A DNA stretch of 64,000 nt from Rhodocollybia butyracea. Taxonomy: Eukaryota; Basidiomycota; Agaricomycetes; Agaricales; Omphalotaceae. The position numbers were made by a program, and so were the translations under genes. The stretch covers positions 124,001-188,000 of the forward strand of contig JADNRY010000064.1 in the NCBI GenBank assembly GCA_015501585.1, in the 5' to 3' direction. Positions 14,119 through 53,220 of the stretch are shown piece by piece (position 1 is the stretch's first letter; each line of letters opens with the position of its first letter). The notes beneath the pieces are model-generated. The model did not search any database and was not told the DNA's origin. It saw only the letters and a program-made list of their open reading frames with translations.

Positions 14119-16778
14119 AGGCGTGGGGCAACAGGTATAGCGGGTTTTACTCCAGAATCAGATTCGGATTTGCACCGTGGAAACCATTTCTCATAGAAAG
14201 TTGCTTGTGCAGCATGCACTACGGAATTATCGCTACGCATGAATAGATATCCTTTGCTTCCTTGGTCATATCCAATGAAAGTCATCGCTTCAGAGTGTGG
14301 GGATTGTTTATTTTTTCGCTTGTCAATAGGAATAAAGACATAAGCGCCACAGCCAAAGGTTCTGAAGTACGAGACATCCGGTTTCTTTTTGAGAAAACTT
14401 TCAATTGGTGTCTTCCAGTTCAATCGACGGATCGGTGTGCGGTTATACACATGTACTCCTGTGGAATATGAAAATTGCCACCAGGACTCCGGGCAGCATG
14501 CATGGTGTCGCATGGCTTCGGATTTTTCCATGAGTGTACGGTTGATACGTTCCGCTCTACCATTCTGTTGATGAACATAAGGTTCGGACATTTGAATATC
14601 AATACCCTCAGACTTGAGAAAGGAAGTAAATTCCTTTGAAATAAGTTCTCCCCCTCGATCAATGCGGAAACGCACAAGTTTGCGTCCAGTTTGTTTTTCA
14701 GCCCAAGATTTGAAATCCTTGAAGGCTTGAAACGCTTCTGATTTTTGTCGCAGCATGATCGAAGTAGCATGAGAAGAGCAGTCATCCAGCAGAGTGATCA
14801 CAAATTTAAATTTATGATAAGAGACAGTTGGAATTTCAACCAAATCTGCGTGAATTAAATCCATAGGGTTGGATGCTCGTTTCTCGGACTTAGGATATGC
14901 TTTGGAGGCAGCCTTTCCAAGCGCGCAACCTTTGCATGGAGATTCTTTATCTGGTATCGACAACTTAGGTAGTCCGTTGACATTTCCAGGAGCATTGCGT
15001 AATACGACATCACCGGGATGTGCAAAACGGTTATGCCAGGTGTTAAAATCATTAGGAGATGATATCATGCCTATCTCAGATTTCACTACATCGGCCTTTA
15101 GCCAGTGAATATTATCCCTATCGTTATTGGGATATAAGGTCATGATGGTTGAGTCATCATCTGTCTTACGAATAACTGATTTTTCAACGTTAATAGTTGT
15201 GTAACAACCCTGTCGATTTAATAAACCAACAGATAGAAGTCGGTGTGTGCAATGCGGTTGGTAAAACACTGGGTGTAACTTAGTCGTGAGGATTTTTCCT
15301 TCGCCGTTGTCATGCCTTATGTAGACTGTTCCGGCACCTTCAATAAAGGTTGACGTACGTTCGTCAGCGGTCTGGACAGGTATCGGATGTGTGAATTTTT
15401 TATAAGACACAAAGTCTTGCCGATAAGGGGTAAAATATCCAGATGCACCGGAATCAAGCAGCCATGTGTTAAATATCTGACTAAGGTTCTTATTCACACC
15501 ATGCACATCATTAGAAACCATTTTATTTAATTTACCCTCGCTAGGAGGTACAGAGTTCAAGAAGCGTGGAGAATGTGATACATAAGGTCCATTTGGACCG
15601 TTTGATATTCCAGCCATATTATTGAACATCTGTTGTAATGAGTGCAATTGGTCAGTGAATTTTTCCTTAAGACTATTAAGGGAAGCTTGCCAGAAAATAA
15701 GGCGCTCATCTCCAGAGCCATACATTTCCTCGTCAATGTCCATTTCGAGTTTAGTCTGAGGCCAAAGGTGATCAGAGAGATCGACTTCTACTTCCTCGAT
15801 CTTCATCCTGTCAAGGACGGAGTCGTGGGAGGCTTCACGGAGGAAGCTGTCGTTAATGCGCGAGGCAAGGCAGGTGGCGAAATTAGAGACATTGGAAGTC
15901 TCCACTTCAGCCGATTCATGAGCCTTTTCTTTGCCTTTTCCTCCTTTCTTTCCGCGGCGTGTCTTTTTGTCTTTGTCGGAAGAAGAGGACGAGTCGTTGG
16001 AAGGTTTGCTTGCCGGGTAAGGCGCTCCCTTCTTGGTGTCCTTCTTCTTTTTCTGATCATTCCAAGAAGACTTGGAGTCAGATTGACGTTTGACGCCGGA
16101 GATGCGTGCCGCGAGAGAGGTAGCGTTGGATTGGCGGCGGCGGTACTCGTCCTGAATAATCGGCATGATGTTGGACGGAGTAAGAAGAGTAGCATCTCGA
16201 GAAAGGATTGTCATCGCAAGACTATCCCATTGAGTAGGTAAGGCGGCCAAGAGAATCATAGCTTTTACCGGTTCAGGAAGAATGAGACCAGAGCCATCAA
16301 GGCGGGAGAAGGTGGAGTTTAAAGATGCTAGGGCAAGAGTAGGGTCGTTTCTTCCGTCGATTTGGAAGTTAATGGCCTCTTTGAAGATGCCAAAAGTGCC
16401 GGCAGAGCCGGGTTTGCCGTAGATCTTTTTGATTTCTTCCCAAGTTTCGCTAGATTCAGTTTTTAGGACAGTAGCCCTGATGTCATCAGGAAGTCGGAGG
16501 GCAATTAAGCCCATGGCTTGGTCGTCAAGGCTGTCCCAGTCATCAATCTCTTTCTGCCGTTCGGCAGTGGTGGTCTCAACGTCTTCATTGGCCTTGTAAG
16601 TGCCAGCAGCGACTTCAGAGGCGCTTGCTTTGCGGAATGTTGGTTTGGGGCGAGGGATCTGTCCACATACAACAGACCAACAACGAGAAGCTCTAAGGAG
16701 CGCTGTCATTGAACTGGACCAGGAGGGGTAGTTAGCCCCATTGAGGAGAGGAACACTAGAGAGGTTTGAGAGAGACAT
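14115..16778 (-). CDS. gag-pol: copia ORF1: Gag, protease, integrase
   Basis: 887 aa starting MSLSNLSSVPLLNGANYPSW. Residues 1-290 are a copia-type Gag (NYPSWSSSMTALLRASRCW, an FKEAINFQ...LNSTFSRLDG core) ending in a lysine-rich stretch; I see no CCHC zinc knuckle. The protease has WLLDSGASGYF. The integrase has its His-Cys zinc region (WHNRFAH...CKGCALGK) and catalytic core with D in HADLVEI, D in RIDRGGE and E in NGRAERINR. It ends at TGA (14117-14115), which overlaps the ORF2 frame. Intact throughout, consistent with the near-identical LTRs. Confidence 0.93.
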   Translation of the reverse strand: MSLSNLSSVPLLNGANYPSWSSSMTALLRASRCWSVVCGQIPRPKPTFRKASASEVAAGTYKANEDVETTTAERQKEIDDWDSLDDQAMGLIALRLPDDIRATVLKTESSETWEEIKKIYGKPGSAGTFGIFKEAINFQIDGRNDPTLALASLNSTFSRLDGSGLILPEPVKAMILLAALPTQWDSLAMTILSRDATLLTPSNIMPIIQDEYRRRQSNATSLAARISGVKRQSDSKSSWNDQKKKKDTKKGAPYPASKPSNDSSSSSDKDKKTRRGKKGGKGKEKAHESAEVETSNVSNFATCLASRINDSFLREASHDSVLDRMKIEEVEVDLSDHLWPQTKLEMDIDEEMYGSGDERLIFWQASLNSLKEKFTDQLHSLQQMFNNMAGISNGPNGPYVSHSPRFLNSVPPSEGKLNKMVSNDVHGVNKNLSQIFNTWLLDSGASGYFTPYRQDFVSYKKFTHPIPVQTADERTSTFIEGAGTVYIRHDNGEGKILTTKLHPVFYQPHCTHRLLSVGLLNRQGCYTTINVEKSVIRKTDDDSTIMTLYPNNDRDNIHWLKADVVKSEIGMISSPNDFNTWHNRFAHPGDVVLRNAPGNVNGLPKLSIPDKESPCKGCALGKAASKAYPKSEKRASNPMDLIHADLVEIPTVSYHKFKFVITLLDDCSSHATSIMLRQKSEAFQAFKDFKSWAEKQTGRKLVRFRIDRGGELISKEFTSFLKSEGIDIQMSEPYVHQQNGRAERINRTLMEKSEAMRHHACCPESWWQFSYSTGVHVYNRTPIRRLNWKTPIESFLKKKPDVSYFRTFGCGAYVFIPIDKRKNKQSPHSEAMTFIGYDQGSKGYLFMRSDNSVVHAAQATFYEKWFPRCKSESDSGVKPAIPVAPRL

Positions 16779-17509
16779 GTTTTGATAAGGTTCTAGAAAA
16801 AGTAGAGCAACAGTCAGTGACGTGCTTCCACAAGTTATGAACTCAGATCACAACAACAGAGTCAGAAACCCGTGACAAGTGTTTTCAGTGTTGATCGCAT
16901 ATAATTATCCATCCATTTTCCATCCACTGATCCGATCATTCCAATTCGGACTCAGTCACTTAAGTTGATCGGAACACAAATAGGGTAACTGAATGCCAAG
17001 AATATGCGTTCAGTCAACGTTCAGATGTGCTTTGCAGCACAATCGAACAGTATCCCTTCAGCATGTGAAGAACTTAAGGCAAGCAGCAGGTAGGTAATGT
17101 GTATGTACAATTATTCTACGAAGGCCAAGAACCCAATGATCGTTCGCAGTTTGCCAGCGGATGCACATGAACGCTTTTATGGCTATTATAGCGGTGACCC
17201 CAAGTCTACCTGGCAGGGAATAAAACCCTAAAGGGAATGCCATCACAGCAAAGCCCTTAAACAGTTCGTTCGATCATTGGGTGCCTATGTAAATACATGT
17301 GTGTGTCAGTGTGCAAAGTCATGTATATTTTTGAACAATGCAGGAATGGAGAGAAATGCGATCCATGAATGTTACCATGTACCATGACCAGCTATGCACA
17401 ACACGCGAACTTCGTACACTCCAGGAATGAGCGTTGGACGTTCATTGAACACTGTCTAACCAAGTGCAGTAAGCACAATGGAGGGCACAACATGTGTTGA
17501 AGCGATCCG
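16779..17509 (-). other. Untranslated leader of the copia element
   Basis: About 730 bases between the primer-binding site and the Gag ATG, without a long frame. It should contain packaging signals, which cannot be identified by eye. Confidence 0.6.
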
Positions 17510-19819: not shown

Positions 19820-20009
19820 GTTATAAACTGTGTTGTACCATTTGGGGGTTGAGGAATTTGATTGTGGTATTGAATAGAAAATACACGCAGATGCTGAAAT
19901 ATGATGCAACACCATAAATCAGATACGACGATACCCTCTTGGTGAGTTATTTATGTATTTCGAGCAAGTACATACTACTTATGTCTTATCGGGCTGGCCC
20001 TGCAACGAC
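19820..20009 (+). promoter_or_regulatory. Duplicated promoter region, copy 3
   Basis: It shares the AAACTGTGTTGTACCATTT...GATTGTGGTATT block with 5435-5500 and 20935-20985. The leader block GGCTGGCCCTGCAACGAC is at 19992-20009. No clear TATAAAA is present, unlike copies 1, 2 and 5. Confidence 0.4.
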
Positions 20010-20038
20010 ACTACTATCCCGAGTCCATCGCCAGCTTA

Positions 20039-20905
20039 ATGCGCTTCCTATCTATCGCTCTATCGCTCTTTGCGCTCTTCACTGTGCTGCCTACCATATA
20101 TGCAGCCCCTTGCCAGTACACAGATTGTTCACCGCAGTGCAGTGCTACTTTCACCATTGATGACAAAGTTGCGGTTACAGGCGCTCAACTTACGCCTCCT
20201 ACTGATAAACAATGCACCGTATATCGACTAGGTCAACTCGATTCTGCATTTTTGGATCGGGACTTTGCTAACAGACTACTTCGATGGCTTTTAGCTTCAT
20301 GGGACGGCAAAGAGAACCCTGGTTACGTTATAAAGATATTCAAGCAGAAGCCTTTGACCAAAAATGAGATAGCTGGTCTCAAGCTCGTGGGCCAATTTGT
20401 GGCAGTGGATAAGAAGGAGCGAGCTATTGTGATGGTTGAGGCACAAGGTGAAACACTGGGTAAATTATTGAAAGGACAACCAACAAGTGGTGTGGAGTCA
20501 CTATTGAATCAATGGATACCTAAGATTGCAGCAGAGGCTGCTCGTGTTGCCAACGCCTATGGGATATATCATGGGTGCGTCAAATCCCCACTCTTTTGTG
20601 GATTTCCTTACTGTATTTTGTTGTCCTAGTGATCTGCATGATGGCAATGTGAATACTTGTTAGAGTTCGCGAATCTCACAGCTAATTTTGGTCAAGATTG
20701 TCATAGAGACAGAAACAGGTAGAGTCACCCTGATTGACTGGGCATACTATTTCATACGTGGCCAGCCGGTACGTGCACATTATCAATCAACTTTTCAACT
20801 CTTCGAGTTTAATGCCTTTGGGCTCTACAGGGATTCGAGGATGATGTCACAGTTATTCAGAAGTCATTAAAACTTGACTTGGAGATTCTCTGGCTAGGGA
20901 TATGA
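20039..20905 (+). CDS. Small secreted kinase-fold (APH-like) protein, copy 3
   Basis: Five exons: 20039-20231, 20295-20574, 20630-20648, 20697-20768, 20831-20905, giving 212 aa. Signal peptide MRFLSIALSLFALFTVLP, three cysteines early in the mature part, GYVIKIFKQKPL (lysine), VMVEAQGETLGKLL (hinge), IYHGDLHDGN (catalytic loop, closest of all copies to the APH motif HGDLHxGN), and GRVTLIDWAYY. Intron 1 is 63 nt, a multiple of three, so an unspliced transcript would also stay open; the conserved branch site GCTAAC and the other copies support splicing. The C-lobe is very short. Neighbours copy 4 head to tail about 350 bp away. Confidence 0.74.
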
Positions 20906-21252
20906 GAGATGTGCCCCTTTTACCCGAGCGCGCGCTATAAACTGCGTCGCACCATTTTGGGACTGCGGGATTTGATTGTGGTATTTCAGATCCAACGTTC
21001 CTGGAAGCTGAAAAAATTTCTACTGAGAAGAGAAAATACACGCAGAGATATATGGTGATATACGATGTGACACCAAAATATCGTAAATCAGATACGACGA
21101 TACCTCTCGGTGAGTTATTTATGTATTTCAAGCAAATATATACTACTTATGTTTATACATACTTATCGGGCTGGTCCTGCAACGACTTTACTATCCTAAG
21201 TCCATTGCCATCTTATTGCTGTGCGATTTCTTCTATTTCTGTTCATTGCAGT

Positions 21253-22109
21253 ATGCACTTCCCATCGTTCGCTCTATCGCTCTATGCACTCTCGACTGTG
21301 CTGCCTACCATATATGCAGCCCCTTTCCAGCATACATATTTCTCACTGCAGCGCCGTGCTGCCACTACCCTCACCATTGACGGCAACATTGCAGTCATTG
21401 GTGCTCAACTTACGCCTCCCGAAAATGAATACTGCCCTGTATATGAACTAGGTCACCTCGATTCTGCATTTTTCATTGAGACTTTGCTAACAGATTACTT
21501 CAATCGCTCACTTTTAGATTCATGGAACGGCAAAGAGAACCCTGGCTACGTCATAAAGATATTCAAAAGGAAGCGTTTGAATCAAAAAGAGATAGAGGGT
21601 CTCAAGCTCGTGCATCAATTCATTGCAATGGATGAGAAGGAGAAAGCTGTTGTGATGCTTGAGGCGCCAGGTAAAACACTGGCGAAATTATTGGAAGGAC
21701 ACCCAAATGAGAAGGCAGTATGGAAACAATGGATACCTAAGATCGCGGAAGAGGCTGCTCGTATTGCCAAAACCTATGGGGTATATCATACGTGAGCATC
21801 CCAATCCCCACTCCTTCAATTTGTAGATTTCCTCATATTCTGTTGTTCTAGTGACCTGAACGCTGGAAATGTGAGTACTTACTTGTAAAGTGCGACCAAC
21901 TCAAAGCTAAACTTTGATCAAGATTGTCATCGATACAAAAACAGACAAAGTCACTCTGATCGACTGGGAGTACTATCTCAAATCTGACGACCCGGTACGC
22001 ACCAATCAAAATTTCAACTGCTCAACTCTAATGCTTTTACGCCCTACAGAAGCTCACTGATGCCGCAGTTATTCAGAATTACTTGGAAGAATTCTGGCTA
22101 GAAGATTGA
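21253..22109 (+). CDS. Small secreted kinase-fold (APH-like) protein, copy 4
   Basis: Five exons: 21253-21451, 21518-21791, 21852-21870, 21923-21994, 22050-22109, giving 207 aa. Signal peptide MHFPSFALSLYALSTVLP. The two N-terminal cysteines of the other copies are replaced by phenylalanine here (PFQHTYF). Kinase motifs GYVIKIFKRK, VMLEAPGKTL, HTDLNAGN and VTLIDWEYY are intact. An extra A upstream of the fourth exon fixes the acceptor at ATCAAG, because any earlier acceptor would break the frame; this helped set exon 4 in the whole family. It shares its upstream 130 bp and leader block with copy 3. Confidence 0.72.
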
Positions 22110-23524
22110 GAGAGACGTGGAGTCCGGTGTCGATTTATCCGGCGCATCATCGGGAGGAACGCCTCATCCTACGGTACATTCATTATACTAAGTTTTCCTC
22201 TGTTTATCTATGCGTGACTCACAGAAACACTTTTACTCATATACGTAGCCGCTTGATGAGCTCTTCATAGGTGTAGCTATCGCTGTTCAGCGTATCACCA
22301 AATGCCTCGACCAACTCGGAGTTACCGATGCCTCTGGTTCAACTAGCAATTGAGGTATCACAAACGATATGGAGAACGAGCTCAAAGCTAACTTGATTGA
22401 CCTGAGGCTCACCTGGGTTGGCTTGAGTTCATAGGTACTTCTCCTGATGCAAGGGAATTCCAAACACCTGACCAATAATATATAACAAACATATTGAAGT
22501 CATCGTCTATGAAGTCTTGCACCAGAAAACAGACAGATAAGTCAACACAGAGGAGCAAATTGAACAGTAGACTGCGGTGAATTGAATAGGTACATTGTGG
22601 AAGGTGATGATACAGGGCAGGCCAAAAATACACGTTTCCCGCATACGACCCGAAGTAGGCTGTGGTTTCTCATCAGGTGGTGCTACTCAGTGCTCCCCTT
22701 AAGATAGTTAAACGCTGAGCACCGCGCTCCGAAGGCTACTCGATTTTGGCTGATATTAACGACTGGCCGATAGATAAATAATTAAACTTACCCTCAGAAA
22801 TGTACGAATACAAACAACTGAGGGATAATGAATGATATGTGAAGCATATAAGTAGAGCCACAAAACTGCCGGGGTCAAAGAAAATGGGAAGATAAATAGG
22901 ATAGGAAGGTAAAAGTAAAGTTCCTCTTCGACGACTGACTAAGATCCATTGTCCCTTCGGAACCTTGCAGACACTCTTACGAAGCCGTTTGGGCGACCCT
23001 CTATTGTCGGACTCTAGGACCACTGGGGATGGGCGGCGGGGGTGAGCGAGACAATAGGAGGGTGTCTGGACAGCAGGGAGTTCCGCCACCAGTCGGCCCC
23101 CGTATGGTTTCCCTATACGGATATATGCTATACAATTTCCCTTTAGCTTCCTTTGTGTATCACCTTGTATCACCTAAGTTTTACCTTCCTATTCCGTTTA
23201 GGCTTCTATTTCTCCGGTAACTGTTTTAGACTGAACCTGTGTAACTGTTGGTATTTTCTCTCAAGCACCCTCAGCGGTTGATACACTTCGTGTACAGCCG
23301 AGGATACCGTACTTACTAGTTCTTACATATGTGGCACAAAGGAGCTGGAATTTCTCGCGTTGTACGTTCTGTGAACCCGCAGAGTATGCTACATTGAAGC
23401 GCAGTATGCCTAAGCATGCCGTCCCGAATGTTGAGATAAGGGATGTTTCGAGCGTTTCTGATAGCGGCAGCCGCTTGCTAGTCACAGTGGGTCACAGGTA
23501 CCACCTCTCCTATAGTAGCCATCG
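22110..23524. other. Intergenic with duplicated fragments
   Basis: 22230-22400 repeats part of the degenerate segment at 4160-4290 and 18740-18870. 22480-22670 is an inverted copy of 42320-42490 (for example CCGCATACGACCCGAAGTAG against CTACTTCGGGTCGTATGCGG). The rest (22680-23500) shows only short frames. Confidence 0.5.
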
Positions 23525-23579
23525 TATAAAAGATGGACATGATCTTCGACTTTCGGTATCGGGCTGGGCCTGCAACTAC
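23525..23579 (+). promoter_or_regulatory. TATA box and leader block, copy 5
   Basis: TATAAAA at 23525-23531, 103 bp before the ATG, and the leader variant GGCTGGGCCTGCAACTAC at 23562-23579. The promoter has been kept although the gene behind it is broken. Confidence 0.5.
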
Positions 23580-23627
23580 ATACGTCCAGACTACATTACT
23601 ATCCTAAAATCACCACCCCATTGCAGT

Positions 23628-25541
23628 ATGCGCTTCCCATCTCTCACTCTATCACTTTTCGCACTCTCGACTGTTCTGCCTACCATATACGCAGCCCCTT
23701 GCCAGCATACAGGTTGCTCACTGCAGCACCGTGCCACCTTCACTATTGACGGCAAAGAGGCAGTTACCGGTGAACAACTGACGTCTCCCACCAATAAAAA
23801 ATGCACTGTGTATCGCCTAAGTAGGTCAACCCGATTCTGAATTTTTTATTGAAGCGTTGCTAACGAAATACTACCGTAACTTACTACACAGCTAGCCCAA
23901 TCTATTAAACTGAGTTGAACCCAAAGCCGCTGGTGCGTGGCTTTATTGTTTTGATGCTAAGGGTCAAAGTGAGCAACAGTACTGGGGATCAAATCAGTCC
24001 CAGGAAGCAAACGGATCGTCTCTGGGACCAATTGCTGTTACAACGTGATGTGCCTTTCCGATTATTTCCAAATCCTATTCCGCTTGTCCCCGGTTCTTAT
24101 TCCGAGTGCCCCGATAGTTTGCAGCCAAAAGAATATATATTGTATTGCACACTACTAGCTATGCTATCTGTAGTCGTACTGCACAAACGCTGTGCGGCAT
24201 ATTCATACCAACGATGCAAAGAAGAAAACAGAGTTACCTTGCTTTGATCCACAGGATGAAAAATTAGCGAAAAAACCTACCTCACTTCAAAGGTTGGAAG
24301 GGAAGCCTTGAGATATTGAGATACTTGAGTGTCTTGAAGGGTTTGGATATTACTATTTGTAGTCGTTCTCCGAACGTGTTGAATAATTTCTTGAAGCTAT
24401 CATGACTTGAAGTTGACTTGAAGGACGTTAGTGTTACATATTTGTATCTTGATTCTTGAGCCTGTATGCTTGAGAACTACTTGCTGGCTTGAACACTTGC
24501 ATGACTCGAATGAATCGAAAGGTGAAGCTTGAAGAAGGCCATGAAAATTCGGAATCGGAATGCAAAGGAGAGGAAGGAAGAAGGACAGAGAAGGACTCAT
24601 GAAGAAAGCGACGGCGATGAACCAACACGAGCCAACACGTGCAAGCGGTCTCGTGGTCGTTTGGCTTCTGGAATGATGACAGATGAGCGTGGAGGGTTCG
24701 TCCCAGGTGCAGCCAAGTGGTCGCTGAAGTGTAAAACTAATAAAATTTGCGTTCTAGTGCTATCTACGCTGTTTGAAGTTTGGGTTAAATTTTTTAAAGA
24801 ATAGGTCAAAAATAAGATTGATGTGTGGCACTGCGGCCGGCAGATAAACCAAGCGCATCTGAGCGTCTGGCCGTGTACTTAGCTTCCTGGGCTGGTAAAG
24901 CAATCGGTAAAGGGGACCCTGGTTACGTCATGAAGATATTCAAAGAGGACCCTTTGACCCAAACTGAGATAGACGGTCTCAAACGCGTGAGACAATATGT
25001 CAAAGTGGACGAGAAGGAGAAGGCTATTGTGATGGTTGAGGCACGAGGTAAAACGCTGGAGAAATTATTGAAGGATCACCCAGAAGGTGGTGAGGAGTTG
25101 TTGGAACGATGTATACCTAAGATTGCGGCGGAGGCTGCTCGTATTGCCCATACCTATGATATATATCACGGGTGCGTATCTCAACCCCCACTCCGCTGTA
25201 GATTTCTTTACATCTTGTTCTTCTAGTGATCTGCACGAAGGCAATGTAAGTACTTGTATAATTTGCCAATCTCAAAGCTAACTCTGGTCAAGATTGTCAT
25301 AGATACGAAAAGATAAAGAGATCCGAAAACAGGTAGAGATACGATAACAGATAAAATTACCCTAATCGACTGGAACCGCTACTTCCTACGTGGCAGTCCG
25401 GTACGTTTATTTACAACTCTTCAACTCTTCAGCTGTGTTTAATGCCTTTGCACTCTACAGAAATTCAAGGAAGATGTCGCGGCTATTCAGAAATACTTGA
25501 AGAGTATGGAACATCTCTGGCTGGGGAACATCTATGAATAG
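23628..25541 (+). pseudogene. Secreted kinase-fold protein, copy 5, split and interrupted
   Basis: Exon 1 (23628-23819) encodes a normal signal peptide and two-cysteine N-terminus, but the splice donor is altered by a small insertion (CTAAGTAGGTCAAC instead of CTAGGTCAAC). About 1 kb of unrelated DNA then separates it from a good exon 2 (24883-25171: GYVMKIFKED, IVMVEARGKTL, IYHG), exon 3 (25227-25245, DLHEGN) and the rest. Exon 4 starts at 25293 with IVIDTKR and then meets TAA; a small internal duplication there (25310-25350) breaks the frame before LIDW. The last exon (25461-25541) is still recognisable. Probably a pseudogene; a truncated product ending after DLHEGN is the alternative. Confidence 0.7.
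23885..24865. other. Foreign segment inside intron 1 of copy 5
   Basis: About 980 bases lie between the remnant of intron 1 and the start of exon 2. Intact copies have about 60 bases here. I could not find terminal inverted repeats, LTRs or a target duplication by eye. A 110-codon frame (23915-24247) looks unremarkable. Repeats of a TTGA-rich motif (TTGAAGTTGACTTGAAGG and similar) occupy about 24280-24540. Confidence 0.5.
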
Positions 25542-38549: not shown

Positions 38550-39703
38550 TAGGATGTACTTAATGTGCTCGCGTTGTGCAACCTGTGTGCAACCAAGCTT
38601 GGGCTGACAGAAATAAAATAATATTGTCGACAGCCAGTAAACGCCTATTAGAGAGTTTCGTGAACTAGATGTAGTGCTAAAATATACTGTGTTCAAACCT
38701 CGACGGACAGATAATCTGAAAGATACATACTTATGCCGCAGAAAGAATATGTCGAAGACTGAGGTTCACGATGGGCACTTATACGCAGACGCGCGAATCT
38801 GTCTCCATTTTCGTCACTAGGGATTAGTTTGATGAACAATGAGTGGCAGAAGCCATTTGATAGCAGGACACTGAGCTCATGCGCTTAAACGCACACATGA
38901 GTCTCCGGGGCATGCGTTGACTGAAGGCTTCTGGTGTTTCAACGCATGTCTGAATTATGAACCAGGAACCTTTGATCGAAGGTGGATTAATGAGTATCTT
39001 GGAAAACGACCAAAAATTGACTACGTTTACTACTATTGCTATTTTGATAATTCCAAAATGAGTCAATGCTTTCAACTGTGGGTTTGTACCTGTGCCGATA
39101 GGGAGTCCAATAATATTTTAAAGCATCAATAACATAAATATGTATTGATGAGAGCTCAGATGTTCACCTGCTCTTGCCCCTTACCGCTCACCTTTCACAT
39201 GTGACGTGCTTTGAAAAGCCATTTTTGGCGAACAAGTGTTCAAGTTCCTTGATGTCAGTGTGGTCCCCAAATAGAAGATCGCTGCATATGTTCTTAGTCC
39301 CTTCGAAGACCTCGAACAAACCTCGACTTCCGTTCCTGCCGGAAGTGGGAACATAAATATTTTGCAGCATGCGGAATACACCACCCTGTTATAGAATCAA
39401 TGACAGGGAGGAATTAAACAGTAGCGCACAGACTCCTGGACTCTGCTGTACCTGGATTGCCTGGGGAAATAAAAGCAGCTCCTTTGCTTTCACATTCCTG
39501 CCACCCAGGTCCTACTCCGCCAACCGCTCTCAGAGTCAGGTTTTCCGAAAGAAATCACCAACTGTCAGCGTGTTGTAGGCTGCCGCATACTTAGTCTTCT
39601 TCACTCCTTAGTCCTCCGTTGGAAACACTTCTCTGTAAGTTTAAATCTCGGCTGACCCTCGCTCGTCCCATAAGCTTTGTACACAGGAGCAGCTTAAGTA
39701 GCC
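38550..39703. other. Upstream part of tandem duplication unit 1
   Basis: No gene supported. Segments around 38820-38920, 39170-39280 and 39600-39700 recur before the other two tandem paralogues (for example CACATGTGACGTG then TCCTTGATGTCAGTGTGG), so the duplicated unit includes about 1 kb of upstream DNA. Confidence 0.55.
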
Positions 39704-40753
39704 ATGTCAGCGTTCCTTGCATTCATCGGCATTATCAGTGATCTTTTCACTGTGGTCGGCGGTTTCCAGAGCCTTTTTCCATCCAACTCACCAACTATAA
39801 TATCACTCCAGGATTTCACGCGTCTACTTCGACAGGAGAATGTGAGATTCTTTACCCAAGTTGAAACCGCACGACTTCAATCCACCCGACTCAATTTCTA
39901 TGATGTATGGCTACCTGCAATCGCTTCACGTACGGTTATCGATGCCAGTGATATCGACTCCCCAAGTGGTGCATTTCATCACGTCTTCAGAAACCTCAGT
40001 GATTCAATCCAGGAGGTTCATATGCGCGTAGAGACCCTAGCATCTGTTTTCCGCCAAAACACTGATGTACTACACACCGATGACTTTGTGCAAGGCATGT
40101 TCCTCATGATGGAGCTCTACGGCCTGCTTTTGCATATGCATGTCGTGTGGGCCACACTCCGACGTATCCAGGTTGGAGCGTCCTCTCTTGATGATCCGGC
40201 TCTCATCGTTGACACTCTGTCAGCCATGGTGTACACAAGCTCTGCTCGGACCTTTGTTCGAGAAATGCACGAACTGTCATTGGCCAGGCGGCTTGACTTC
40301 ATTGAGCATGTACGCAACGAGCGGGCATATTTCCCCAACGGGTTTTACTTCGTCATCTATTCGTTTTCCGACATATACTCGCCGCTGCCTAACACCTTAC
40401 GTCCCCTCACGATAGCCTACTCGCCCATCGTCTTGCCTACGTCGTATCAAAGGACGACCCTCGAGGATAGCAATGCAGCGAGTTGGATAGCGAACGCTCG
40501 AGTTACGCATGTAGGTGCTATTCAAATTGTGTACGGTAGCAAGACGTATGAGGCACCTGGGTTTGCAGCGGAGATGGACAAGTTGATGGTCATGTTGGAG
40601 GCTAGACTGGCTCTCCAGAGTAGAGCCAGGGGGTTAGAGAATGTGCACGGGGTGAATGATGTTTTTAACTCGGAAGAAGAGGCGAAGGCGGCATTGATGG
40701 CTATCTTTCCCAAGGACGGTAACAAGGATGACAAGGAGGCAACCGTGGTGTGA
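39704..40753 (+). CDS. Tandem intronless paralogue 1, unknown function
   Basis: A 349-aa intronless frame. It opens with a hydrophobic segment (MSAFLAFIGIISDLFTVVGG), with no clear signal cleavage site; the body is largely helical by composition (QDFTRLLRQEN, VFRNLSDSIQEVHMRVETL, MFLMMELYGLLLHMHVVWATL), and the C-terminus is charged (NSEEEAKAALMAIF...KDDKEATVV). About 204 N-terminal residues are almost the same in paralogue 2. No motif tells me its job. Lack of introns in an intron-rich genome suggests a retrocopied or horizontally acquired ancestor. Confidence 0.75.
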   Translation: MSAFLAFIGIISDLFTVVGGFQSLFPSNSPTIISLQDFTRLLRQENVRFFTQVETARLQSTRLNFYDVWLPAIASRTVIDASDIDSPSGAFHHVFRNLSDSIQEVHMRVETLASVFRQNTDVLHTDDFVQGMFLMMELYGLLLHMHVVWATLRRIQVGASSLDDPALIVDTLSAMVYTSSARTFVREMHELSLARRLDFIEHVRNERAYFPNGFYFVIYSFSDIYSPLPNTLRPLTIAYSPIVLPTSYQRTTLEDSNAASWIANARVTHVGAIQIVYGSKTYEAPGFAAEMDKLMVMLEARLALQSRARGLENVHGVNDVFNSEEEAKAALMAIFPKDGNKDDKEATVV

Positions 40754-43182
40754 ATTTAGATCTTCTATGTATATAGTATACAATAATAACGGGCCCAGGT
40801 TTCTGCGGGCACGGTTGTACAACTATCTCTTGGTATCGCTTTTTGGTATTTCGTGAGCTATGGCAAGTGAAATTTTTTTGTATAGCATGGATAAGGTAAG
40901 TGTAAAGCTCAAATACTGTGAAGTTCAATCAAACTTGGCACAAACCTCGACGGACAACTGACCTGAATAAGTACTCACTAACTCCACCATGCAAGAATTA
41001 TAACTCGATGGGCGCTTACATAGGCGCGCGCGCTCTTTTATCTACTCCACGTCGATGAAAAGACGCAACAACGATTCGGATCTCCTGCCTGGATTCACCT
41101 GAAAGGACAACACGCAATACTCATCTCCTTCACCTGAGGCCTTGAGGCGTGGAACCGGACCCAACTCACAAAACATCTCGTTTTCTACATGATTGAGCTC
41201 TTGTTGCTCGCTTTCTATTCTATCTTTCGAGATTAACCGCAGCAGCACTCAAAGAGCACTAGCATGAACAGCTGGTGTGTATACTAGAGACTGGCGGAAA
41301 GCCCTTTATTCCAATTTCGACATCTCGAGCTTCCAATTTCGTTTTTGACAACGTCACTCGACTGGCTGACTCCTTTGGTTTTCTTCGCTACGTGTGCGTA
41401 ATTTTTTGGATGCTCAAAATTCTATCCGCGATCCTCGGTCTTTGGAAATTGGTTAGGGCTCTTATGAAAAGCGTGTTTGCTGGTAAAGGATTGCAGAAAG
41501 GTACGTATGAGGATCCTATATAATACATTTCTTTCGTCGTTAACTCTGTCACTGTTACTTCCTCTGCATACCACGGTCGAACCTCAAATAACAAACACAG
41601 CGCTCCAGGCCCCAGGACCTATCTCTGGATATTACATACCCTGTCCGCCCGCTACCGCATTTCTCAGCATACTTGACACTTCAAAAGCTTTCACACAGCC
41701 TTTTCGTTACTTCCACCTCCCTCCAGCATCGGTCCTAGTTAGCTAGAGTCTCACTCGTTGCTCATTAGGCACCTATTTTCGAACTCTACGCTCGACGCTG
41801 GCAGAACAAAGACGTTTACGTGGGACATCTGAATTTCGGAGTGGCTTCAGTACCTCCTGCAGTCTCTTTCCCAGGCGTTGGTTCTCGCGGCTTGTTGAGC
41901 GAATTCAAGGAAAGTTACTCGTCCGGAACTGTACCTCCTGGTGCTCTATAGTACAGGGGCATGATCTATGGAGCATTAGGATCGTATGCGAGAAATCCTG
42001 TAATACCGTATGTACCTCATTTTTTTCTATTTTTACTTCTTTTTGACTTATCTGCAGGTTATCATATATCAGGCTCAAGATTTCGTAGACGGTGACTTGT
42101 TTGTTATTGTTCTCAGATGCTATCGGTGTCTAGAAGATTGTTTCCAAGACCGTTTGACATGGCAAGGATTCTGCCCATGATTCCTATGACGAGATGGTCC
42201 GGATCTGGAATACTACCAGTGGGTAAAACAGATACTGAACAATAGTAATTTCGGCCAAACTCGAGTAGCTTTTTGGAGCACAATGCTCGACGTTTGACTA
42301 TCCCTTCAGAGACCACAGGCTACTTCGGGTCGTATGCGGGAAAAGTTCATTTTTGGCCTGCACTGTATCATCGCCTTCCACGATGTATCTATTTACTTCA
42401 CTGCAGTCTACTGTTTGTTCCTCTGCGCTGACTTATCGGTCTGTTATCTGGTGTGAGACTTCATAGACGTTAATTTCAACGTGTTTGGGATACTGACTAC
42501 TACGCGCCTTGAGCATGTATGGCAACCTTCCCCAATATTCGGCCTATCATATCGTTGCTTGTATTTCACACTTCAGTTGTTGTGTACCACCAGGTAGTAA
42601 ATCTTTCGTCTCTCCTAACTGGGTGAAATAACTGCGTGGGGAGTGTCCAACGATCTCAAAGACATATGATATGCTCACCTGCTCTTGCCACTTAGGGCCT
42701 TTCGCATGTGACGTGTTTTAAGAGAACCATTTTTGACCCACAAGTGTTCAGGTTCCTTGATGTCAGTGTGGTCTCCAAATGCTTCATTGCATGCATGGCA
42801 CAAGTTCACCGCCTCCTGCTATAGAATCAATAACAGAGAATGACTAGTAAGTAGCGCTCAAACTCCTAGAGCCAGTCCCTGTTGTACCTGGTTCGATTTT
42901 ATCAAACTCCTGACTCCTGAGACGATAAATGCAGCTGGTCTTGCTCATTTCTGCCCCTCAGATCCTACTACTACCAGCTAGGCAGCCAACCTCTCTTTCT
43001 TGACGCCAGGTCTTCCAAATAGTTACATCTGTCAACGTTTTGCAGGCTGATAAAATCACGCATAGTCGCATAGTCGTTTTCACGACTTAGTCCTCCATTG
43101 AAAGTACTCCTTTGTAAGTTTAAATCCCTTCTGACTCTCGCTCGTCCCGTAAGCTTTTTTCACAGGACCAGCTTAAGAAGTC
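40754..43182. other. Spacer between paralogues 1 and 2, with decayed coding pieces
   Basis: Plus-strand protein-like pieces occur in different frames: PGPISGYYIPCPPATAFLSI (about 41607-41670), DVYVGHLNFGVASVPPAVSF (about 41810-41870), YGALGSYARNPVIP (about 41966-42007) and, after a clean GTATGT...CTGCAG intron, VIYQAQDFVDGDLFVIV. A repeat of the last two pieces follows at 42320-42490 and an inverted copy lies at 22480-22670. This looks like a broken gene with internal duplication; I cannot name it. 42670-43180 is upstream DNA of the tandem unit. Confidence 0.4.
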
Positions 43183-44232
43183 ATGTCAGCATTCCTTGCA
43201 TTAATCGGAATTATCGGCGATCTTATCACTGTAGTCGGCGGTTTCCAGAGCCTTTTCCCATCCAACTCACCGACTGTGATATCACTCCAGGACTTCGGGC
43301 GTCTACTTCGACAGGAGAATCTGAGCTTCTTTACCCAAGTTGAAGCCGCACGACTCCAGTCCACCCGGCTCAATTTCTATGATGTATGGCTACCTGCCAT
43401 CGCTTCACGGACGGTTATCGAGGCCAGTGATATCGACTCCCCAAGTGGTGCATTCCATCACGTCTTCAGAAACCTCAGTGATTCAATCCAAGATGTTCAC
43501 ATGCGCGTAGAAACCCTAGCATCTGTTTTCCGCCAGAACATTGCTGTACTACACACCGATGACTTTGTGCAAGGCATGTTCCTCATGATGGAGCTCTACG
43601 GCCTGCTTTTGCATATGCATGCGGTGTGGGCCACGCTCCGGCGTATCCAGGTTGGAGCATCCTCTCTTGACGATCCAGCTCTCATCGTTGACACTCTGTC
43701 GGCTATGGTGTACACGAGCTCTGCCCGAACTTTTGTCCGAGAAATGTACAATCTGTCATGGCTCAGGCGGCATGACACCATCGAGCAGATTCAAAGCGAG
43801 CGGGCATTTTTTCCCAACGGGTTTTACTTCGTCATCTATTCGTTTTCTGACAGATACTCGCCAGTCCCCAACACCTTACGTCCCCTTAGGGCTGCCGACG
43901 CAACCGTCGACCTGTCTACGTCGTATAGGAGGTCTACCCTAGAGGATAGTAATGCAGCATTCTGGATAGATCACGACCGTCTCATGCACATAAACGCTAT
44001 TCGTATACTATACAACAACACAGTATTTGAGGCGCCAACGTTCGCGTTGGAGATGGACAAGTTGATGGACATGTTGGAGGCTAGACTGGCTCTCCAGAGT
44101 AGAGCAAGAGGGTTAGAGAACGTGCACGGTGTGAATGATGTTTTTAACTCGGAAGAAGAGGCGAAGGCGGCATTGATGGCTATCTATCACAAGGATGGTA
44201 ACAAGGATGATAAGCAGGCAATCGTAGTCTGA
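43183..44232 (+). CDS. Tandem intronless paralogue 2, unknown function
   Basis: 349 aa, intronless, aligned without gaps to paralogue 1. The first 204 residues differ at only a handful of positions. From about residue 205 (MYNLSWLRRHDTIEQIQSER against MHELSLARRLDFIEHVRNER) to about 305 it diverges strongly, then becomes nearly identical again (MLEARLALQSRARGLENVHG...). Such a variable window flanked by conserved sequence fits either gene conversion of the ends or selection for change in the middle. Confidence 0.75.
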   Translation: MSAFLALIGIIGDLITVVGGFQSLFPSNSPTVISLQDFGRLLRQENLSFFTQVEAARLQSTRLNFYDVWLPAIASRTVIEASDIDSPSGAFHHVFRNLSDSIQDVHMRVETLASVFRQNIAVLHTDDFVQGMFLMMELYGLLLHMHAVWATLRRIQVGASSLDDPALIVDTLSAMVYTSSARTFVREMYNLSWLRRHDTIEQIQSERAFFPNGFYFVIYSFSDRYSPVPNTLRPLRAADATVDLSTSYRRSTLEDSNAAFWIDHDRLMHINAIRILYNNTVFEAPTFALEMDKLMDMLEARLALQSRARGLENVHGVNDVFNSEEEAKAALMAIYHKDGNKDDKQAIVV

Positions 44233-45179
44233 ATTTGGATATTCTATGCACATAAGATACAATAACGGGCCCAGGTTTTGACTTGTGTCTTCGGGCACGA
44301 TTGTACTACCATCTTGGTGTCGCTTTTTGGTTCTTTCGGCTTGTACATCTCTCCAAGCTGGGTGAGATAACTGCGTGGGGAGCAGAAAAAGATTACTGAA
44401 TCAAAATCTCATCGTGCCGTCGCTATAATGCAACATCGCTCAAGTATTCATTTTTGCAACCCGTGAGTAGTTTGATAAACAGAGTCACTTGAGTCTATGC
44501 GCTCAAACAACTGTCTGTGGGCCAACTGTGGGGATGAAATTGGCTATCCAGAGCTTTAGTTATGGCTTTCAGCTTGCGATTCAATGCATGTCCTTTAACC
44601 GAAGATGAGTTGGTTAGGGGCTGATTTCTTCAAGAATTGACCATGCTGTACTATGGGTATTTTGAGTCATCTGCTTTCAACCCATAAGTTTGCCTTGATA
44701 GGTCCGACGATCCCAACGATCCCAAAGATATATGATAAGCTCATGCCCCTCACATGTGACGTGTTTTGAGAGGGCCATTTTTGACCAACTGTTCAAGTTC
44801 CTTGATGTTAGTGTGGTCTCCAAATGCTTCAGTGCATGCGAAATCTAGTGGCACCAGTTCGCCACCTCCTGCTATACAATCAATTAGTAAGTAGCGCTCA
44901 AACTCCAGTCCCTGCTGTACCTGGCTCGATTCTATCAAATTTCGGACTCCTGAGATGATAAAGCAGCTTTTCTTGCACATTCCTATCCCTGAGATCCTAC
45001 TACCAGCTAGGCAGTCAACCGCTCTTGGTACCAGGTTAGCGCTGATAAAATAAAATCACGCATAGTCGCATAGTCCTTTTTACGACTTAGTCCTCCATTT
45101 GCAAACACTTCTTTGTAAGTTTGAATCCCTTCTGACTCTCGTGCGTCTCATAAGCTTTTTATGCGGAAGGAGCTTAGTC
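44233..45179. other. Spacer between paralogues 2 and 3
   Basis: Repeats the upstream elements of the tandem unit (44734-44840 matches 39160-39280 and 42676-42790). No gene supported. Confidence 0.5.
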
Positions 45180-46223
45180 ATGGCCTCAGCACTCCTTGCA
45201 TTGCTTGGCCTTATCAGCGATCTTTTCACTGTAGTCGGCGGTTTCCAGAGCCTTTTCCCATCCGGCTCACAAAATGTGATAACACTCCAGGACTTCGGGC
45301 GTCTACTTCGGCAGGAGAATCTGAGCTTCTTTACCCAAGTCGAATACGGACGACTCCAGTCAACCCGGCTCAACTTCTATGAGGTATGGCTACCTGCCAT
45401 CGCTTCACGGACGGTTATCGATGTCAGCGACATTGACCCCACAAGTGGTGCATTACATCACGTCTTCAGAAACCTCGCTGATGCAATCCAGGATGTTCAC
45501 ATGCGCGTAGAGACCCTAGCGTCTGTTTTCCGCCAGAACATTGCTGTACTACACAGTGATGACTTTATGCAAGGCATGTTCCTCATGATGGAGGTCTACG
45601 GCCTGCTTTTGCACATGCATGTTGTGTGGGCCACGCTCCGGCGCATCCAGGTTGGAGCGTCCTCTCTGGACGATCCAGACCTCATCGTTGACACTCTGTC
45701 GGCCATGGTGTACACGAGCTCTGCCCGAACCTTTGTCCGAGAAATGCGCGAGCTGTCATGGACCAGGCGGTCTGACGCCATTCAGCCGATTTCTATCCTA
45801 GGCGGGATCCCCGGTTGGGAGGGCGGGATCAGAATCTTTTACTTTTCCGACATATACTCGCCACTGCCCAACACCTTACGTCCCCTCACGATTGACCTCT
45901 CGCCCATCCGCCTGTATGCGTCGTATAGGAGGTCCACCCTAGAGGATAGTAATGCAGCAACCTGGATAGCGAACGCTCGTGATAATCACGAACGTGCTAT
46001 GCGGGTAGTATTCAATAGCAAGACGTGGGAGCCACTAGGGTTCGTGACGGAGATGGACAACTTGATGGCCGTGCTGGAGGCTAGACTTGCACTCCAGAGT
46101 AGAGCAAGGGGGTTAGATAATGTGCACGGTGTGAGGGATCTTTATAACTCGGAAGAAGAGGCGAAAGAGGCAATGATGGCTATCTATCACAAGCACGATG
46201 ACAAGGAGGCAACCATAGTCTGA
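45180..46223 (+). CDS. Tandem intronless paralogue 3, unknown function
   Basis: 347 aa from ATG at 45180, chosen because it aligns with the starts of the other two (MASALLALLGLISDLFTVVG); an upstream in-frame ATG at 45099 would extend into DNA that is noncoding in the others. Most diverged of the three. Its middle (about 205-310) again differs, here with ILGGIPGWEGGIRIFYFSD replacing the NERAYFPNGFYFVIYSFSD region, while the segment DIYSPLPNTLRPLT is shared with paralogue 1. That mosaic hints at exchange between copies. Confidence 0.72.
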   Translation: MASALLALLGLISDLFTVVGGFQSLFPSGSQNVITLQDFGRLLRQENLSFFTQVEYGRLQSTRLNFYEVWLPAIASRTVIDVSDIDPTSGALHHVFRNLADAIQDVHMRVETLASVFRQNIAVLHSDDFMQGMFLMMEVYGLLLHMHVVWATLRRIQVGASSLDDPDLIVDTLSAMVYTSSARTFVREMRELSWTRRSDAIQPISILGGIPGWEGGIRIFYFSDIYSPLPNTLRPLTIDLSPIRLYASYRRSTLEDSNAATWIANARDNHERAMRVVFNSKTWEPLGFVTEMDNLMAVLEARLALQSRARGLDNVHGVRDLYNSEEEAKEAMMAIYHKHDDKEATIV

Positions 46224-46613: not shown

Positions 46614-47675
46614 CTAGTACTTTCCGTTGGCCCCGTTCACCAATGAAACCTCCTTGACATCCTTGCTCAGCACAACATCCTCGCCAAATATATGCAACTT
46701 CGACCCGGTGTTAACCGAGGCGTGCACCTGTGCATTTGCACTGACACCCTGCACCATCACCTCCATGCTCTGCGATATATGCTCATACGCAGACTTGGTC
46801 ACTACCTCGATTGCTCCCGCGATAGCTAGAGCCATGATAGAGCTCATCTGTGCGGTGACATGCTCCACTGTCGAATGGGCGATTTTGTTCATAGTGGCCT
46901 GCATAACAGGGTGTGCAGCGATGACGGAAAAGTCGGGCTCGGCAACAACCTTAAACTTCATCCAGGGCACTTCACTGAGCATAGTCGAAAGGGATTCGTT
47001 GTACTCGATGACGACGATGACACCGTTGTCGGAGCGGAGTCTGGTTGCGAGGTCGAACCAGCATTCTTTGACCGCGCGGCCGTCGGTGAGTTTGCATTTG
47101 GCGAAGAGTTTTGTTCCTTCGATTCGGAAGCCCTCGGATGTACGGTGGAAGTCCTTGAAGCCCCACTTCAACTCGCCGTTGATGTTACCGAGGTATTTGT
47201 GTAGGTCGAAGGTAGAGACTTTCCAGTGTTCACCGTCGGCTAGAAGACATTCGGCTGAGAGAATACCTTCAGCTGAGACATGGTGTTTCCTGGTGCTCTG
47301 GGCGAAGGACATTGTCATCGTCCTGTAGGAAAGATATCAATATTAAATAATAATTAAAACACAACCCGGTTGACTAACCTCACGCTCTTGAAGCTTGACG
47401 TTGTTTCAGAGTGGGAGTGGGACTCTGAAAAGTATTGGGTCTTCTCGGAAACAGCGGTGGAAACAGCAGTGGAACTGCTGCTTGCGCTCATACTAGCTGT
47501 TTTAACGGCCTTGGTAGAAGCGATGTCGATTTTCAAATCTTCGACACTAGATGGGTTGGTATTAAGCTCGTATATGCAACAAGATCTGTGACTCTAGCGC
47601 TCACGCTTTCACCGCGTCAAGTACAGCGACCTTGGCTTGGGACTGAGGAGTTTTCGTGGAGTTGGTGGAAGACAT
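46614..47675 (-). CDS. CVNH-domain protein, short paralogue without annexin
   Basis: Three exons on the minus strand: 47675-47605, 47546-47379, 47322-46614, giving 315 aa. Residues 1-80 are serine-rich (MSASSSSTAVSTAVSE), with no signal peptide. A single CVNH (cyanovirin-N homology) domain follows at about 88-186: AECLLADGEHWKVSTFDLHK, YLGNINGELKWG, FRIEGTKLFAKCKL, CWFDLATRLRSDNG, matching the two-half CVNH pattern with its cysteine pairs. A helical segment (VMQATMNKIAHSTVEHVTAQ...) comes next, and the protein ends KDVKEVSLVNGANGKY. CVNH domains bind high-mannose or related glycans in characterised cases. Exon 1-2 lengths (239 nt) equal those of the larger paralogue, so the two are duplicates, one gaining or losing the annexin end. 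Confidence 0.8.
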
Positions 47676-50409: not shown

Positions 50410-53220
50410 TCAAACCCCCTTAACAATTGCCAATAGAGCTGCCCCATAATTCTGGCTAGTCTCCCCACGGACCCTCTCCTCGAGAGATGTTGGCTCGTTC
50501 TTCTTGCTATACTTCGTCTTATATGCTAGTTTGATTGCCTCGAAACGGGGTGCATCCCAGTGGTATCGCACGATTCTGTAACAAGACACAGTCAGACCCG
50601 GATTACACACTAGAGCCAATGAACTGACCTCCTGACGAGCTGCGTGTCTTTAGTTCCAAAACCCACCATTGATGCTTCAAGCATCTTAGCGTCGCGCCAT
50701 ACGCCTGCCTCCATGGCATGCTTCGACTTCGCACCATTAATGATAAACAACATGGCTTGTTTTATGTGGCCGGCAGGGCTAAGTTCCAAGAATCAAATCG
50801 ATCCATGTTACCACCAAGGGAATGCTTACAAGTCGTCTGACTTGATGACTTTTGTTAATGATTGATATTTCTTTCTGTACGCTTTGCACCTATGTACAAA
50901 TGTCAGCAGATTCTCAGCGGGAAGGACGAACATTGAGCTCATCGAACAATGAGATAAACATACAATGCATCTAGATGAGTCCTCGACCTGTTGATGATAA
51001 TTTCGAAAAATGCAACCTAGGGATTACAGACGGTGAGTGCTGATCGACAGCAGACAATGGAGAAATCTACAACTGACCTCGTCCACTCTGGCTTGTTTTC
51101 CTGGACATGCTTTGTACAATGCAGCCACGTCGTTTTCGACCTGAAGAGAATCAACAGGCGCATTCTCAGGTGGCGGATTTGCTGATAAGATCATCTTGAA
51201 CACTATCAAAGTTCGAGGAAATTAGTTTTGTCAATAAGGAAATAAAGAGAATATTACTGACTTTGGTTCGCTTTTTCACCGAGTTTCATATCAGCCTGAA
51301 GATCCTGCCCGTAGAGCATTTTGTAGGCCGTCAACAGATGTTGACGATCGGAGGGGGTGCGATTGACGAGAATTTCGGTCAAAATTGGGTCATCGGGCCT
51401 GACAAAAAATTAGTTGGTCCATCGATCAAGGACAGAACAAACGCCTACATTGCTACATTGATCGCACTCTTTACAAGTTCGACATCAAACCAAAGCGGGC
51501 CAAGGACAAGACCATGCAGAATTTCTCTAAAAAATTGTCAAGAACAGCCATACAATGACTTGGGAACTTACTGTAAATAACCCGTCCCTTTGAACCACCC
51601 CAGCATACTTGTGAGCTCGCTCTTCAAAAACGCAACAAGAGTTTGTCCCATCCTTGCTTTGTAAGCCGCGGATAAAGCAGCCATAGGGAGGGAGTCAAGA
51701 TGAACGAGAATCGCGATTACTTTTCAACCAGATTCAGTTCTCACAGAGCGACAGAAACTTTGAAAAACATACGAGTAGGTTCTCTCTTGTCATTCGCTAG
51801 TTTCGTAATTTTGATGAGCTTGTCAATATCGAGCGTGGGGTTGTATCCTGGAGCAATCTCTCCCTGCAGAGCAATATCATACCCAGGAGCTGGAATCGCA
51901 GTATTAAGATACTGCACGATCGACGTTTGTTTAGGCGTAGGTTGGGCCACGGGCGGTGGGGGCGGGTGCGAGACTGCTGGCCCAGACGGAGGGAGGTCTT
52001 TGACATCCGTGGTCAACACCGTAGACTTTGGTTCAGGCGTAGGTTGGGCCACGGGCGGCGGGGACGGGGGTAGGACTGCTGCCACTGACGGAGGGAGGTC
52101 TTTGACATCCGTGGTCACCGTAGCCTTTGGTTCGGGCGTAGGTTGGGCCACGGGCGGCGGGGGCGGGGGCAGGACTGCTACCACAGGCGGAGGGAAATCT
52201 TTGACGTCCGTGATTAACAAAACATTCTCGCGAATGATCTGCAACTTGGACGCTGTGTTAACCGAAGAGTGCACGTGCGCATTTCCGCTGATCCCCTGCA
52301 GCATCACCTCCATGCACTGCGATATATGCTCATACGCGGACTTGGTCACTACCTCGACTGATCCTGCGATAGCCAGAGCCATGATGGAGCTCATTTGCGC
52401 GGTGACATGCTCCACAGCCGAATGGGCGATCTTGTGCATGGTGGCCTGCATAACAGGGTGTGCAGCGATGATAGAAAAGTCGGGCTCGGCAACAACTTTG
52501 AACTTCATCCAGGGGACCTCGCTGAGCATTGTCGAAAACGATTCATCGTATTCAATGACGACGATGACACCGTTGTCGGAGCGGAGCTTGCTGGCGAGGT
52601 CGAACCAGCATTCTTTGAGTGTTCGGCCGTTGGAGAGTTTGCATTTAGCGAAGAGCTTGGTTCCCTCGATTCTGAAGCCTTCGGATGAAAGGTGGAAGTC
52701 TTTGTAGCCCCACTTCAACTCGCCGTTGATGTTACCGAGGTACTTGTGGAGGTCGAAGGTGGAAACTTTCCAGTGTTCGCCGTCAGCTAGAAGACATTCG
52801 GCTGAGAGAACACCTTCAGCTGAGATATGGAGCTTCCTGGTGCTTCGAGAGAAGGACATTGTCATGGTTCTGCTCGCATGGAAGAGGTCAGTATCCAACC
52901 AAGTAATAAAAAAAAAGTTGACTAACCTCACGCTCGTGAAGCTGGACTTTGTTTCAGAATAGCTCGACTCTGAAAAATGTTCGCTCTTGGAAAAAGCAGT
53001 CGAGTTACTGCTTGTGCTCATGCTACCGGTTCTAACCACTGAATCCGCATTACTCCCGACAGAGGCAAAGGTCAGTTTCTCATTTTCAGTGCTGCATGAA
53101 TCCATAGTGAGTTCGTTTAGGGAGCTAGAGTTGATAGAGAACTCACGCTTTCACTGCAGCAAGCACAGCAGACTCGGCTTGAAGCTGAGGAGTTTTCAAA
53201 GAATTGGTCAAAGACATCAT
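50410..53220 (-). CDS. CVNH-annexin fusion protein
   Basis: Eleven exons on the minus strand: 53220-53147, 53091-52927, 52869-51773, 51719-51572, 51526-51449, 51398-51262, 51202-51078, 51016-50964, 50889-50830, 50778-50629, 50575-50410. Every join is GT-AG and in phase, giving 750 aa. Residues 1-80 serine-rich; 88-186 CVNH (AECLLADGEHWKVSTF, YLGNINGELKWG, KECWFDLASKLRSDNG); 190-295 helical; 299-395 three repeats around TDVKDLPP...PPPVAQPTPEPK; 425-750 four annexin repeats. Annexin marks: LIAILVHLDSLPMAALSAAY, LVLGPLWFDVELVKSAI, ILVNRTPSDRQHLLTAYKML, IIINRSRTHLDALCKAYRKK, and GFGTKDTQLVRRIVRYHW. Only the last repeat keeps GxGT of the type II calcium site. No signal peptide, so probably cytosolic. 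Inferred role: linking glycans or a protein partner to acidic membranes. Alternative: two adjacent genes, but the third exon encodes CVNH, repeats and the first annexin helix without a break. Confidence 0.82.
51934..52215 (-). repeat. Three ~100-bp in-frame coding repeats
   Basis: Units start near 51934, 52037 and 52136 (plus strand GGCGTAGGTTGGGCCACGGG each time). They encode the proline-rich linker of the fusion gene. Lengths are multiples of three, so unit gain or loss keeps the frame. The CVNH-only paralogue has none. Confidence 0.8.

Follow-up and report, generated by a model that had tools for sequence, protein, structure and literature searches.

The locus at 50410..53220 raises the question of whether a single gene can join a CVNH domain to a complete annexin core and, if so, how the two were brought together and what the protein might do. 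The window analysed is a stretch of 64,000 nucleotides of Rhodocollybia butyracea (contig JADNRY010000064.1), and coordinates given without a contig or locus label are those of the window. Taken as a whole, the locus is best explained by a CVNH-annexin fusion at the DNA level that was kept by selection and whose product would serve as a scaffold largely uncoupled from calcium (probability of about 0.7).

The fused gene

The gene and its parts were read as follows.

50410..53220, minus strand: fused gene, stop codon included; 11 exons, 750 aa
52927..53220, minus strand: exons 1 and 2 (53220-53147, 53091-52927), Ser-rich N-terminal region, aa 1-79
51773..52869, minus strand: exon 3 (1097 bases), which holds the CVNH domain, the helical segment, the proline linker and the beginning of annexin repeat 1
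52554..52853, minus strand: CVNH domain, ~aa 86-185
52197..52541, minus strand: helical segment, ~aa 190-304, common to the stand-alone CVNH-helical genes
51906..52196, minus strand: proline-rich linker, ~aa 305-401, with repeated TDVKD..PP..VAQPTP units
50413..51857, minus strand: annexin core of four repeats, ~aa 418-750; last part of exon 3 and exons 4-11

The ten introns of the model are all of the GT-AG type, the frame is open from the ATG to the TGA, and the exon set was reproduced by a spliced aligner. The first-pass annotation had proposed one in-phase gene with CVNH at the front, then a helical segment and a proline-rich linker, and four annexin repeats behind, and had stressed that exon 3 holds CVNH, linker and annexin start without a stop. 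Both statements are borne out by the 11-exon open frame and by exon 3, which is open across the whole junction from the CVNH domain into the first annexin repeat. The Pfam check suggested there was likewise positive for each domain, with 51.2 bits for CVNH (PF08881, cut-off 24.5) and 101 bits, spread over four stretches, for annexin (PF00191, cut-off 25). The CVNH part has the sequence profile and two-repeat fold of its family, and the annexin part comprises four repeats of ~70 residues and aligned with solved annexins over aa 419-746 (Annexin VI, E 9.7e-38). Judged from sequence, each half is a member of its family by fold, and the novelty is the join.

Between aa 269 and 458, the window protein is devoid of an in-frame Met, and its exon 3 would thus be unable to start a whole annexin separately; the fusion on contig C675 has one in-frame Met within its linker, and the argument is therefore valid for the window gene only. 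Reading by eye gave no obvious signal peptide in the fusion protein. The frame, intron and selection evidence together points to a single transcript.

For the helical segment, a long helix was predicted with low confidence. Among the matches listed by structure searches, none was convincing for this segment; the lists were filled by the CVNH part, and the model was of low confidence. An amphipathic membrane helix was considered and rejected, since hydrophobic moments over 15 windows of the segment (0.03-0.36) were in no way striking.

Fusion copies in the genome

The genome (95.6 Mb, 1381 contigs) was scanned for both domains, yielding 23 CVNH and 9 annexin exon matches, counts that include allelic copies. 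Its gene content also comprises 94 hydrophobin matches and, with 150 of 211 candidates scored, at least 132 matches to DUF6533, as would be expected of an agaricomycete. When loci were read with a spliced aligner, fusions were found at three of them (the window, C675 and C1283), which rules out an oddity of a single locus. The C675 fusion is intact and 646 aa long, with a CVNH match of 40 bits and an annexin match of 148 bits in four stretches; 423/645 aligned residues are identical to those of the window protein. For the C1283 copy the corresponding figure is 562/688.

L022 6749-9373, contig C1283, minus strand: third fusion copy, with five one-base frameshifts

Of these frameshifts, three affect the CVNH-helical half and the other two the annexin half, which makes this copy either a broken gene or an assembly error. 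The intron positions of the three fusions correspond, one of them lying inside a codon at an alignment gap. The linkers of the C1283 and C675 fusions are shorter than that of the window gene, the gaps relative to C1283 being 96 and 54 bases. Contigs C1283 and C1094 look allelic on alignment (94-96% in the longest aligned pieces and 83-87% in the remaining ones), and C1094 ends just short of the expected position of its fusion.

Parent genes and origin of the join

Stand-alone relatives of both halves were found in the same genome. One CVNH-helical gene is located ~3 kb from the fusion.

46614..47675, minus strand: stand-alone CVNH-helical paralogue; 3 exons, 315 aa; PF08881 61.7 bits

Pfam gave no annexin match in this paralogue, which ends 11 residues after the DVKE point. 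In total, six stand-alone CVNH-helical loci were read (window 47675-46614, two on C1283, and one each on C1094, C670 and the plus strand of C675); the C670 locus is cut by the contig end, exon 1 of the C675 locus was placed wrongly by the aligner, and two of the six are allelic, namely the C1094 locus and one of those on C1283. All six have a stop codon no more than 13 residues beyond DVKE/DVKD, where the fusions read on. None of the three fusions retains this stop, and exon 3 of both intact ones runs through the junction uninterrupted. A reading as two adjacent genes was rejected because exon 3 is open, the stop is missing and the arrangement recurs at C675. Exons 1 and 2 of the fusion are also present in four of the six stand-alone loci (window, C1283 twice, C1094). 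Upstream of the fusion, the DNA aligns with that of one stand-alone gene over ~740 bases before the ATG, which suggests that the fusion promoter is probably derived from the CVNH family.

The highest CVNH score in the genome (75.7 bits) belongs to a separate short open reading frame preceding the CVNH-helical gene on C675 (L018 7143-7436, plus strand). On contigs C440 and C545, a CVNH stretch is followed by a second CVNH with a long helical tail (L028 2819-4036, plus strand, and a matching stretch of L029). These double-CVNH stretches show ~25% identity to the window family, and their helical tail makes the CVNH-helical layout look old in this genome.

Ordinary annexins are represented by C455 and the near-identical pair C697/C539, all with a P- and Y-rich (YP-rich) tail. 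The pair shares the introns of the annexin part and has one extra intron in repeat 4; the reading of C697 left one intron unplaced and showed one frameshift in its tail. In the annexin part, the fusions and C455 have eight introns at corresponding positions (one within a codon, at an alignment gap), and since they have been retained, an origin of the annexin part as a retrocopy is ruled out. The window and C1283 fusions also keep the end of the annexin tail (QxSIVQYLNT..PAPG..; C455: QTATVYYLNT..PAPT..). With this tail end retained before the core, the CVNH-helical module appears to have taken the place of the remaining tail and, as both parent types are present in the same genome, to have done so by DNA-level fusion.

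In the annexin tree, the fusions form one clade (96/95) beside C455. The CVNH tree groups the window fusion with that of C1283 (100/99) but gives the C675 fusion no supported position (56/3), so it is the annexin part, along with junction residues that by eye are common to the fusions, that speaks for a single fusion event.

Selection on the two halves

Comparison of the two intact fusions (dS 0.78-0.92) gave dN/dS values of 0.146 for the CVNH domain, 0.216 for the helical segment, 0.271 for the annexin part over aa 402-750 (0.261 over aa 411-750) and 0.271 for the N-terminal Ser-rich part; the linker value was 0.48 over 30 codons and 0.36 over 21 codons when other borders were used. Between the window and C1283 copies, values were 0.115 (CVNH), 0.149 (helical segment) and 0.239 (annexin). 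In the part of exon 3 past the junction (aa 402-446), changes at codon positions one, two and three numbered 6, 3 and 14 relative to C1283, and 14, 7 and 17 relative to C675. Both halves are under purifying selection (dN/dS 0.15-0.27), and together with the distribution of changes over codon positions this indicates that both are kept as protein.

State of the putative binding sites

A type II calcium site was scored as complete if the loop GXGT (or, in repeat 3, the KIGT form) was combined with an acidic cap residue (D/E). Tabulated by eye, complete sites numbered 1/4 in the window protein (repeat 4), 1/4 in the C1283 copy (repeat 4) and 0/4 in the C675 protein, versus 4/4 in each of the ordinary annexins C455, C697 and C539. 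Of 20 motif columns conserved in both ordinary genes, the window protein keeps 11, C675 12 and C1283 14; the corresponding numbers for the other 175 conserved columns are 132, 137 and 133. A preferential loss of calcium motifs was not significant (Fisher p 0.063 for the window, 0.093 for C675, 0.59 for C1283), so the sites appear to have decayed along with the rest of the core and not to have been specially protected. The sequences thus point to calcium-site decay in the fusions that is not provably faster than that of the remainder.

The CVNH domain was compared by eye with lists that we take to represent the sugar contacts and disulfide pairs of cyanovirin-N. Against these presumed positions, few sugar contacts are kept in the alignment, and neither cysteine pair is complete. 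Fungal CVNHs vary at the positions of the cyanovirin-N sugar contacts.

These results divide the earlier interpretation. Its fused coding gene holds, as does its CVNH fold, for which glycan binding is putative; the presumed mannose-binding contacts of cyanovirin-N are, in the same alignment read by eye, mostly gone together with both disulfides. A response of the annexin part to calcium is not supported, with one complete site in the window protein and none in C675, compared with four in ordinary annexins, and the results speak neither for nor against a part in defence or wound sealing. According to a review of fungal annexins (PMC4656261), type II sites are few or lacking in ANXC3 of A. fumigatus, and the decayed sites of the fusions may be compared with it; since such an annexin exists, membership by fold stands, and calcium binding does not follow from it.

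Proposed explanation and alternatives

We propose that a CVNH-helical gene was copied together with its first exons, and probably with its promoter, and that this copy was joined at the DNA level to a duplicated ordinary annexin, at a point inside its proline-rich first part, so that the CVNH-helical module would have replaced the YP-rich tail. The joined gene would then have been duplicated, with purifying selection acting on both halves. The product would most likely act as a scaffold in the cytosol, its annexin core providing a platform for binding membranes or proteins that is largely uncoupled from calcium because most of its type II sites have decayed. The CVNH-helical head could mediate self-association or ligand binding, presumably as in the stand-alone paralogues, and the proline linker would let head and core move apart.

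The function suggested in the first-pass annotation was a tether, in which CVNH would bind a glycan or glycoprotein and the annexin core would attach to acidic, damaged or endosomal membranes when calcium rises. In its favour, both folds are present and the type II site of repeat 4 is complete in the window protein, while sites of a residual or type III kind lie beyond what sequence can tell; against this, the other three type II sites are incomplete, C675 has no complete one, and most of the presumed sugar contacts are missing by eye along with the disulfides. We therefore consider such a tether unlikely; calcium-driven action through repeat 4 is possible, yet less likely than the uncoupled scaffold.

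That the fusion is functionless and drifting towards loss would agree with the frameshifts of the C1283 copy and the decay of the calcium sites, but the low dN/dS over both halves of the two intact copies at dS 0.78-0.92, and the lack of any stop or frameshift in either, make it very unlikely. Nor is it at all probable that overlapping or alternative transcripts of one locus yield the CVNH-helical protein and the annexin as separate products. Each half does occur on its own in the genome and the C675 linker offers a Met, but the window protein lacks a suitable one, the CVNH-helical stop has gone from all three fusions with exon 3 open in the intact ones, and both linker gaps relative to C1283 are multiples of three. 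A selected, calcium-uncoupled fusion protein remains the preferred reading. It is conceivable, at somewhat less than even odds, that it represents the first known fusion of a lectin fold (CVNH) to an annexin, formed in a basidiomycete protein lineage whose annexin, its tail replaced by the CVNH-helical module, afterwards lost most of its calcium control and became a constitutive membrane or protein scaffold.

Relation to known proteins

Annexins vary chiefly in the N-terminal tail, to which the choice of partner is attributed. Among animal annexins, ANXA7 and ANXA11 have long tails whose variable N-terminal part sets the partner, and ANXA9 and ANXA10 have decayed calcium sites, with type II sites lost in some; we know of no animal annexin with a lectin-fold tail. 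Fungal annexins of the ANXC group share the four repeats with the fusion, whereas in the latter a folded CVNH domain and a helical segment replace the N-terminal tail. The role of the CVNH family within fungal cells is, to our knowledge, largely unknown. TbCVNH, NcCVNH and GzCVNH have the CVNH fold in common with the window protein, TbCVNH being the closest of the three (36% identity). They differ from it in that the window CVNH continues into the helical segment and annexin core, has neither cyanovirin-N cysteine pair complete and keeps few of the presumed sugar contacts. In MoCVNH-LysM of Magnaporthe, CVNH is likewise a module joined to another binding domain, but there LysM is inserted within CVNH, whereas the annexin core follows CVNH in the fusion; the domains of MoCVNH-LysM are reported to behave as isolated units (PMC4392113).

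The literature searched contained no paper combining CVNH or cyanovirin with annexin, and the words 'lectin' and 'cyanovirin' have 0 occurrences in the text of the fungal annexin review (PMC4656261). Within that literature, this agrees with the earlier remark, whose author knew of no described protein with both domains. Annotated copies may well exist in other fungi. With both parents and three joined copies in one genome, it can be traced how gene fusion gave an annexin a new tail and how the calcium sites decayed afterwards; if expressed, the protein would link the CVNH family to membranes or annexin partners.

Neighbourhood of the fused gene

The window has 31 open frames with a length of 150 aa or more; Pfam searches of 20 of them gave nothing that explains the fusion, and no RNA family reached the gathering threshold in the window. 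Three tandem uninterrupted open reading frames on the plus strand (39698-40750, 43177-44229 and 45066-46220) adjoin the stand-alone CVNH gene; they share 72-83% mutual identity and have no Pfam match at E 0.01. The same holds for the Pfam search of another set of mutually similar plus-strand frames (19946-20626, 20941-21792 and 23235-23837). A Copia-type LTR element occupies 11887-16847 on the minus strand, its gag, integrase and reverse transcriptase domains being encoded in two overlapping open reading frames.
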